64,000 nucleotides of DNA from Salinigranum rubrum (GTDB taxonomy: Archaea; Halobacteriota; Halobacteria; Halobacteriales; Haloferacaceae). This document shows, in pieces, positions 14,728 to 16,681 of this stretch. Numbering within the stretch: position 1 is the first letter of the stretch; each line of letters opens with the position of its first letter. The notes beneath the pieces were generated by a model that had not been told where the DNA came from, searched no databases, and saw only the letters and a program-made list of their open reading frames with translations. The stretch spans positions 2,356,001-2,420,000 of the forward strand of contig NZ_CP026309.1 of the NCBI RefSeq assembly GCF_002906575.1. Direction: 5' to 3'. A program made the position numbers and the translations under genes.

Positions 14728-14802
14728 GCTCGGTTGGTGTAGTCCGGCCAATCATCTTGGCCTTTCGAGCCGAGGACAGGGGTTCAAATCCCCTACCGAG
14801 CA
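14728..14802 (+). tRNA. tRNA-Glu (anticodon TTC)
   Basis: A full cloverleaf is visible: acceptor GCTCGGT paired with ACCGAGC, T-arm AGGGG-TTCAAAT-CCCCT and anticodon loop CTTTCGA with anticodon TTC. A TATA-like CCTTAAAT (14694-14701) lies about 30 bases upstream. Its 3' end is the apparent insertion point for the islet that follows. Confidence 0.93.
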
Positions 14803-14845
14803 TGTTTCTGAACGAACGAAGTGAGAAAGAACCACGCGCAGCGTC

Positions 14846-14859
14846 GGGGATTTGAACCC
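14846..14859 (-). repeat. Inverted copy of tRNA-Glu T-arm
   Basis: The 14 bases GGGGATTTGAACCC are the exact reverse complement of the T-arm of the adjacent tRNA-Glu (14780-14793). They form part of the tRNA-derived debris between the tRNA and the islet gene. Confidence 0.6.
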
Positions 14860-14898
14860 TGCCGGTCGCGCGCAGCGTCAGCGAGCACGTCCGGGTCC

Positions 14899-14920
14899 GG
14901 TTCAAATCCCATACCGAGTA
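14899..14920 (+). repeat. att-like copy of tRNA-Glu 3' end
   Basis: The sequence GGTTCAAATCCC then ATACCGAGTA matches the tRNA 3' end GGTTCAAATCCCCTACCGAGCA with only two or three differences. It is a plausible attachment-site copy left by integration at the tRNA gene. Confidence 0.55.
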
Positions 14921-14998
14921 TTCTCCGTCGAATTATCGTCGAGCGACCGCTCTGCGTGTCTACTTAGATTGGGAGAAATCTGAGTCAGATAGACTCGG

Positions 14999-16468
14999 CT
15001 ATCCATAGGTTGCTTTCGAGTATTCCTGAGTTTTCTCTACAATGCTCTCACTCAATTCTCGCCATCGTGCCCCATTCTCGCCGGAGTCCATTTCGGTAAG
15101 GACCTTACCAAGTTGCTCTGGATCAACATCAGCCCAATCAAATAATTCGTCGATATTGAATCGATCTTTAATTTCATCATAGTTATCGATGACTAGTTCT
15201 TTCTCTCGTTCGTTCATATTTGGTTCAATCACGTTAAACGGGAGCGTAGAAAGAAGCTCAGAGACTCCAATTTCACTGATAACCCGATCCGAGATCACCT
15301 CTGAAAGATCTTCCGAAGTCCCAGTTTTGAGGAAGCTCAAGGCCTCATACGTACCAGAGAGGTAACTGTCCACATCTTCGATTTCTGGATAAATGGTCAT
15401 ATCAGCCAACTCCAGAGGCATCACAGCGATGAAGCCATCCCGAGCATGGTCGGAAGGGATTGAGGGCTGGATTGCCTCCTCAAGAAACCGTTCGGCGGTT
15501 CTGTAGTCGTGGTCAGGGTACACCACGTACATTCGCATGTATTTGACTTCCTCTGGGAACCCTCTATCTGGGTACTTGTTTCCTATTCTTGTGTGCGGGA
15601 ACCGCTCAATTGCCTGTGTTACCTCCTCATTGTAGTGCATCTTCTGACTGAAGAGCAAGAATTTGGTAGCTTCATTTCCGATGCGCTCCATCTCTCTTTG
15701 AATTTCTTGAGCTGTTTCACGGTTAATCGTCTTGGTATGTAACTTTCCACGAGCAACGAGCCGACCAAGAGTACGTCGGAGTTCGCTTGAACGCTCCCGG
15801 TCACTGAATAAAACAAGAGCAAGCTGTTGTGTCGTCCCGAATTTGATAGCGAATTCTAGAGCCAGATCGCGTGGCTCATCTGGTTCTTGTCCAAATAATT
15901 CCTGTGGCTCTCCATCAACTCCCTCAATTGTGTTCCGAGCCGCGTCAAATGCACCGAGGAACTCGGTCGTCGCATCGTCAATTTCTCCAAGATTAAAATT
16001 AGTCATCAGATCATCTATTTGTGTCTTCATTTCGGCTTGCTCAACGGCCTTTCCAGAAATGAATATTTCACGACATAATAGAAGGATGACAATAATATTC
16101 TCACGAGATTGCGGAAGAGTATCAAAACTCAGTGATACACCTATCTGATAGATTGCTTCCTTGGTCGGTTCTGTGTTAGATTCAAGAACCGCTGAAACTA
16201 ACTCATCGTTATCCGCAGGTGTCAGTCCAAACTCGTTCATTCGCCCGCGAAATCGTGATGCAAGATTTCGGATGAGATCTTCTCGCTGATTCTGTCGCTT
16301 TCGCGCGTCGTACATATTCTCAATCCGGTTTGCGAAGGGAATGCTAGCTGTCGCCAGTACAGCGAGAATAGCGGTCACTTCTGTGGAGAACGAAAAAATA
16401 CGCGTGAGAGCTACGATTCCACCGATTGTCAGGTATAGGAGTCCAAATACGACTACTCTCAATCGCAT
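14999..16468 (-). CDS. Unknown two-helix membrane protein, 489 aa, low GC
   Basis: This is the only long gene of the tRNA-Glu islet, with codon use much richer in A/T than every other gene around it. Two N-terminal transmembrane helices (about residues 2-22 and 30-48) are followed by a ~430-residue soluble, charged, mainly alpha-helical region without a motif I recognise. The start at the second in-frame Met (MRLRVVVFG) is chosen because TTTAATA (16493-16499) lies about 29 bases upstream. The protein could belong to a defence or phage-related system, since such islets often carry these, but nothing in the sequence proves it. Confidence 0.75.
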   Translation of the reverse strand: MRLRVVVFGLLYLTIGGIVALTRIFSFSTEVTAILAVLATASIPFANRIENMYDARKRQNQREDLIRNLASRFRGRMNEFGLTPADNDELVSAVLESNTEPTKEAIYQIGVSLSFDTLPQSRENIIVILLLCREIFISGKAVEQAEMKTQIDDLMTNFNLGEIDDATTEFLGAFDAARNTIEGVDGEPQELFGQEPDEPRDLALEFAIKFGTTQQLALVLFSDRERSSELRRTLGRLVARGKLHTKTINRETAQEIQREMERIGNEATKFLLFSQKMHYNEEVTQAIERFPHTRIGNKYPDRGFPEEVKYMRMYVVYPDHDYRTAERFLEEAIQPSIPSDHARDGFIAVMPLELADMTIYPEIEDVDSYLSGTYEALSFLKTGTSEDLSEVISDRVISEIGVSELLSTLPFNVIEPNMNEREKELVIDNYDEIKDRFNIDELFDWADVDPEQLGKVLTEMDSGENGARWRELSESIVEKTQEYSKATYG

Positions 16469-16621
16469 TTTGAGACACATCAGTCGTGATAGTATTAAAT
16501 ATACATGATGATTGATACCTCGTGTCGTGGAAACATGACGTGGGTTGGACGTACGACACGGAACCACCCTCTCGACGTGACAATCGATAACTCATGAAAA
16601 CGCGCTGCTCCGCAGTAACTC

Positions 16622-16633
16622 GTTCAAATCCCC
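16622..16633 (+). repeat. Distal tRNA T-arm repeat of islet
   Basis: GTTCAAATCCCC is an exact match to 14782-14793 within tRNA-Glu and sits exactly where composition returns to the chromosomal norm. It is the candidate distal attachment site. Confidence 0.5.
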
Positions 16634-16681
16634 ATTCGTCCCTCGTCGTCACCCTCTTGTCACGTCCCCCGAGCGTCGACC

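Follow-up and report, generated by a model that had tools for sequence, protein, structure and literature searches.

The tRNA-Glu locus and its low-GC block

The window analysed here is the whole 64-kb stretch of DNA, and the features of its tRNA-Glu locus are collected in Table 1. The earlier note had described a low-GC block exactly downstream of tRNA-Glu. The low GC content was confirmed, with values of 0.44-0.49 between approximately 14,930 and 16,600 (0.438-0.488 from approximately 14750 to 16500) compared with approximately 0.68 for the stretch and approximately 0.64-0.72 on either side. The block does follow the tRNA; however, its onset lies approximately 120-130 bp past the tRNA gene because positions 14803-14935 are GC-rich. 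The frame of the 489-aa protein (P0001) is intact, and a TATA-like element upstream of its start codon has the spacing of archaeal TATA boxes and is the putative promoter of the gene. The claim of one gene and no integrase holds for the low-GC block itself, but the stretch of the source genome (G000) that has no counterpart in congeners reaches approximately 17150 and also takes in a 131-aa gene. The nearest PF00589 match listed on the chromosome is approximately 169 kb off. Since the block holds no integrase gene, it is at most a remnant or a trans-mobilised insert.

Table 1. Features of the tRNA-Glu locus, in window positions
Feature	Position	Strand	Basis or remark
tRNA-Glu (TTC), anchoring gene	14728..14802	+	ARAGORN; Rfam RF00005, 54 bits
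Post-tRNA hairpin unit	14846..14920	+	T-arm matching, unit alignment, covariation
Inverted T-arm of the unit	14846-14859		
Interior of the unit	14860-14898		
Direct copy of the unit	14899-14920		20/22 vs last 22 nt of tRNA-Glu
Low-GC block, from the hairpin unit to the second T-arm copy	14921..16621	.	Composition; without counterpart in three congeners
Gene of the 489-aa protein	14999..16468	-	489 codons, no internal stop
TATA-like TATATTTAATA, putative promoter	16493..16503	-	25-35 nt upstream of ATG
12-nt exact tRNA-Glu T-arm copy (GTTCAAATCCCC), right edge of the low-GC block	16622..16633	+	12/12 core nt
Gene of a 131-aa high-GC membrane protein	16682..17077	+	No match in three congeners

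Only four occurrences of the 9-mer GTTCAAATC or of its complement were counted in the whole window, all of them at this locus: in the tRNA-Glu, at 14849 (inverted), at 14900 and at 16622. The chance expectation for the T-arm 12-mer is approximately 1e-4 per 2 kb. The right copy matches the core completely, yet it agrees with the full tRNA end at only 15 of 22 positions.

To place the locus among its relatives, the three congeners in the collection (G001, G002 and G003) were compared with G000. The left flank and the tRNA-Glu were kept in all three, and homology resumed at approximately 17,151-17,157 of the window. Between the flanks, the contents differed in all four congeneric genomes. In G001, 1.2 kb with a metallophosphoesterase gene was found. 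In G003, the 1.4 kb between the flanks consisted of one low-GC gene of 329 aa, antisense to the tRNA (L068:3165-4151); its product had no Pfam or PADLOC match, and it carries a stretch, RDSVAH, which we take to resemble the RX4-6H motif of HEPN ribonucleases. In G002, the flanks were 4.0 kb apart, and a broken integrase frame in two pieces (L070:10545-11597; Phage_integrase, E 5e-15), starting approximately 0.2 kb past the tRNA-Glu, was followed by other genes. The broken integrase points to the enzyme class that used this site.

The 489-aa protein was absent from 3/3 congener genomes, and no T-arm copy was found within approximately 11 kb downstream of their tRNA-Glu. The observation that the earlier note had named as speaking against an insertion, the same sequence with normal composition in all relatives, was thus not seen. 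The comparison with empty sites that it had proposed came out in part: the cargo was missing and the flanks were kept, but no clean empty tRNA-Glu site occurred among the three congeners. The contents of G000 lie 3' of an intact tRNA-Glu and have no counterpart in the congeners. The site behind this tRNA is a hotspot of insertion, and the block is real, foreign DNA at a known kind of site. As for the 131-aa gene, matches were present in 41 of the 99 genomes of the family (Haloferacaceae), and in several other genera it stands approximately 1 kb from tRNA-Pro.

Archaeal tRNA genes are common attachment sites (PMC8371274), and PMC3119063 describes integrases next to the tRNA-Glu of haloarchaea, where a truncated copy of the tRNA lies 5-48 kb away. 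Those islands, in Hfx. volcanii, Hgm. borinquense and Nab. magadii, resemble the present locus in the tRNA, the downstream truncated copy and the foreign insert. However, as described there, they have kept the integrase and have their truncated copy 5-48 kb off, whereas the insert of G000 is approximately 1.7 kb of low-GC DNA with one gene and without an integrase.

The 489-aa protein and its family

The 489-residue protein with two N-terminal helices of the earlier note was borne out, since residues 3-21 and 25-43 of the intact frame came out as hydrophobic in a hydropathy analysis. A helical middle domain (approximately 51-222) and a C-terminal part follow the two helices. The basic residues after the second helix suggest that the large acidic domain would face the cytoplasm. 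Nothing reached the threshold in sequence searches of Pfam, NCBIfam, PHROGs, PADLOC and PDB, nor in a search of PDB with a 12-sequence profile. A PADLOC candidate, PDC-S15 (best E 0.017, for P0001 only), was dropped because seven relatives were scanned without a match. An AlphaFold2 model of the full-length protein, built from two sequences, had a mean pLDDT of 49.9 and was good only in the helices of approximately 51-222. The fold searches (Foldseek, best E 0.36; VIA-align, best Z 4.3) were both uninformative. A model of the C-terminal part had a mean pLDDT of 39.6. The structure prediction and profile searches that had been suggested for this gene yielded neither a curated family at threshold nor a solved fold that stood out.

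When the single sequence was used as a query, 13/391 Halobacteria genomes were matched, and the 12-row profile recovered 12/391, G000 being included in both counts. The match in G103 (L013, E 7e-4) was rejected as a relative, since the profile did not recover it, and its neighbourhood (L027) was left out. The scan of genome contigs for the family yielded one locus. Three relatives are 52-54% identical to the 489-aa protein, and identity is 17-25% for the remaining eight in the alignment; one relative, from Halolamina pelagica, is 53% identical, and another is on a 167-kb plasmid (unnamed2) of Halobaculum halobium. At least one hydrophobic N-terminal segment was found by hydropathy in 11/12 members, L006 having none. 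Five residues (M1, F328, L406, W445 and W469) are invariant across the 12 sequences; they do not suggest a catalytic site, and no recognisable catalytic motif was found in the 489-aa protein. As far as the searches reached, the family appears rare, uncharacterised and confined to Halobacteria, where its distribution is patchy.

Among three close relatives, the dN/dS was 0.09-0.10, which indicates purifying selection. This value bears on the reading of the 489-aa gene as a mere passenger, an ORFan that decays in a tRNA hotspot and no longer has a function. The degenerate right T-arm copy and the missing integrase would agree with such decay, as would the relative in G022, which is reduced to an 83-codon fragment beside a stop (it is counted in the 12/391). 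Nevertheless, the frame of 489 codons is intact and has a TATA-like box, and together with the low dN/dS this makes the passenger reading improbable.

Gene neighbourhoods and a possible defence role

The neighbourhoods of the relatives were inspected at 11 loci in 10 genomes, the G022 fragment lying outside this set, and selected neighbours rather than every gene were scanned. Among these selected neighbours, known defence genes were present in 5/11 neighbourhoods: a BREX system with a ring nuclease and an ADP-ribosylglycohydrolase on the plasmid unnamed2 of Halobaculum halobium (L019/L079), a CBASS cyclase-Cap15 pair with a DrmMI/type IIG-like enzyme (L020), a type I restriction subunit, HsdR (L015), HKD+Snf2 (L016), and an AbiL/AriA-like ATPase (L022). 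One relative stands directly after the CBASS cyclase-Cap15 pair. Schlafen AlbA_2 genes were found at two further loci (L023 and L026). On the Halobaculum plasmid, the BREX locus lies next to the family member, and genes for the ADP-ribosylglycohydrolase, the ring nuclease (of CRISPR type), a metallophosphoesterase and a PIN-domain protein precede BREX. No partner gene was common to all 11 neighbourhoods. A gene of 177-187 aa (L015:10362-10925 and L016:11059-11592, 69% identical) adjoins two close relatives; its L015 copy had no Pfam match.

Compared with a background from the same genomes, PF00589 integrases within 2 kb were enriched (5/11 neighbourhoods, one of the five being below Pfam's cut-off, 0.22 expected, Poisson P 3e-6), and so were N6-methylases (PF02384) within 20 kb (3/11, 0.26 expected, P 0.002). 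The observed counts were read by eye from match listings, and the P values are optimistic because both markers were picked after some of the neighbours had been seen. One relative sits between two integrase genes.

We consider that a tyrosine-integrase element most likely delivered the block to the tRNA-Glu attachment hotspot. The integrase of the element would since have disappeared, so that one cargo gene and the decayed T-arm copy at 16622 are what is left. We read the 489-aa protein as a probable stand-alone defence protein carried on mobile elements. Its cytoplasmic domain would detect a signal from a virus or plasmid and its membrane part would halt growth or infection, by analogy with other membrane-anchored abortive-infection proteins; the output may be growth arrest or membrane damage. 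Membrane-anchored abortive-infection effectors of the Cap15 class consist of N-terminal transmembrane helices and a cytoplasmic domain. The 489-aa protein is similar to them in its N-terminal helices and its predicted cytoplasmic domain; however, it has no sequence match to them, no fixed partner, and a C-terminal domain without an assigned fold.

The integrases next to several relatives, including the one flanked by two of them, could also mean that the protein serves the mobile element itself, as a maintenance, copy-control or superinfection-exclusion membrane protein encoded beside the integrase. The location of one relative on a 167-kb plasmid would fit this service role. However, relatives also occur in BREX, CBASS and restriction islands, and no family member turned up among 50,697 phage records; five scans of viral contigs gave none either. 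We thus regard a service role as rather unlikely.

The account of an integrase-delivered cargo encoding a candidate stand-alone, membrane-anchored defence protein strikes us as evenly balanced. A defence role taken by itself stands at about the same level, and any particular mode of action is less probable than that. Defence-type cargo at a tRNA site had been suggested earlier; the cargo is indeed foreign, absent from the congeners, and belongs to a rare family found near integrases and defence genes, but it had no convincing match to a defence family. No further known defence gene was noticed beside the 489-aa gene in the window, where the PADLOC search covered the 489-aa protein. What emerges is a concrete family of haloarchaeal proteins that moves together with integrases, lies near antiviral genes, and was missed by the defence models searched.

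Hairpin units behind haloarchaeal tRNA genes

The left T-arm copy was compared with the sequences behind other tRNA genes. All 46 tRNA genes of G000 and 20 each from G003, G120, G305 and G198 were sampled, the latter being high-scoring ones among the 45, 41, 45 and 43 found in these four genomes, and a copy was counted when at least 17 of 22 nucleotides of the tRNA's own 3' end were matched within 320 nt downstream. Such own-end copies were present behind 50/126 tRNA genes (16/46 in G000, 7/20 in G003, 2/20 in G120, 13/20 in G305 and 12/20 in G198). With the 3' end of another tRNA as the query, 4/126 were scored, and the reversed downstream sequence gave 0/126. The tRNAs from other classes of the phylum had no own-end copy (0/30), and one of three further haloarchaeal tRNAs tested had one. 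The direct copy began 41-204 nt downstream of the tRNA, own-end copies lay within approximately 500 nt, and two or three units occurred in tandem behind one tRNA in some cases. The unit loci are L093-L136 and L137-L216, with units in G000, G003, G305 and G198.

An inverted T-arm (at least 8/11 matches) preceded the copy in 47/50 cases, compared with 2/50 in the reversed control, and in 47/50 the inverted arm matched the tRNA it follows more closely than it matched other tRNAs on average. Three copies had no clear inverted arm; at least two of them (L157 and L178) look like acceptor-stem palindromes. The units folded into long hairpins, with a mean z of -2.6 and 36/50 below -1.5. For covariation, 20 of the 47 units were chosen by hand from the longer ones. 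In the stems of the interior, where the sequence is not copied from the tRNA, 92.9% of the cells were paired, compared with 72.8% after shuffling and 15.6-38.1% when slid. The covariation score of these stems was 0.52 vs 0.18 in shuffled alignments, none of 500 shuffles being as high, although this alignment had also served to derive the structure, which favours it.

The unit at 14846-14920 is thus one of these own-end hairpins and not the boundary of the islet. The two T-arm copies reported earlier are therefore both real, but the left one does not stand as a boundary. Among other G000 tRNAs, 20 (16 of them with a unit copy at a threshold of 16/22, the set being chosen mostly for the unit) were inspected and none had low-GC cargo behind it; thus a unit alone does not mark an insert. 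These counts bear on the alternative that the two copies are the ordinary attL and attR of one element that covers 14803-16633. The block is indeed flanked by direct repeats of the 3' end of the tRNA, as that alternative would have it; nevertheless, the left copy is part of a unit type found behind 16/46 tRNA genes here and 50/126 in five genomes, and the 20 tRNAs inspected carried no such cargo, so that we hold the attL/attR assignment to be quite unlikely. A T-arm repeat near a haloarchaeal tRNA often belongs to a self-copy hairpin of this widespread kind and is then no island boundary.

When two congeners were compared over 19 matched tRNA genes (threshold 16/22; matched by tRNA sequence, so that orthology is not certain), the unit was present in both at five, in one only at six and in neither at eight. 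Behind tRNA-Glu, G000 has the unit and its three congeners lack it. Such turnover from one congener to another speaks for an element that is mobile or actively rearranging. As DNA, the units could serve as attachment sites, folded or palindromic, through which copies of the tRNA end are left behind or exchanged. They could likewise be RNA elements in the tRNA trailer, in which the inverted T-arm could pair with the real one. The covariation is compatible with both.

Integron attC sites are imperfect hairpins with complementary ends and a variable, covarying interior. The hairpin units are alike in all of these respects; however, their core is the T-arm of a tRNA, and with the 20 other tRNAs inspected lacking low-GC cargo, gene cassettes between successive sites, a hallmark of attC, were not seen. 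We considered whether the hairpins might be folded recombination sites of a system of tRNA-end accretion, adding and removing DNA including single genes such as the 489-aa one, with tRNA ends as integron-like platforms and the integrase encoded elsewhere. We regard this as a long shot. A cassette reading of the islet is weakened by the same 20 tRNAs and by the right T-arm copy at 16622, which has no inverted arm.

Two exact hairpin-unit patterns were absent from viral contigs. The hairpin units may be the more novel part of the locus and merit separate study; if they are mobile or act in tRNA maturation, an element class at approximately 40% of the sampled haloarchaeal tRNA genes is undescribed in the papers searched. 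Among open-licence papers, no published description of the units was found, and the nearest was that of Methanopyrus kandleri, in which a palindromic motif lies approximately 10 bp downstream of about half of the tRNA genes (PMC5217627). Both are palindromes after many tRNA genes of an archaeon. As described there, the M. kandleri motif is a short palindrome, whereas the haloarchaeal unit contains the T-arm of the preceding tRNA in both an inverted and a direct copy; the direct copy starts 41-204 nt downstream, and units are sometimes in tandem.
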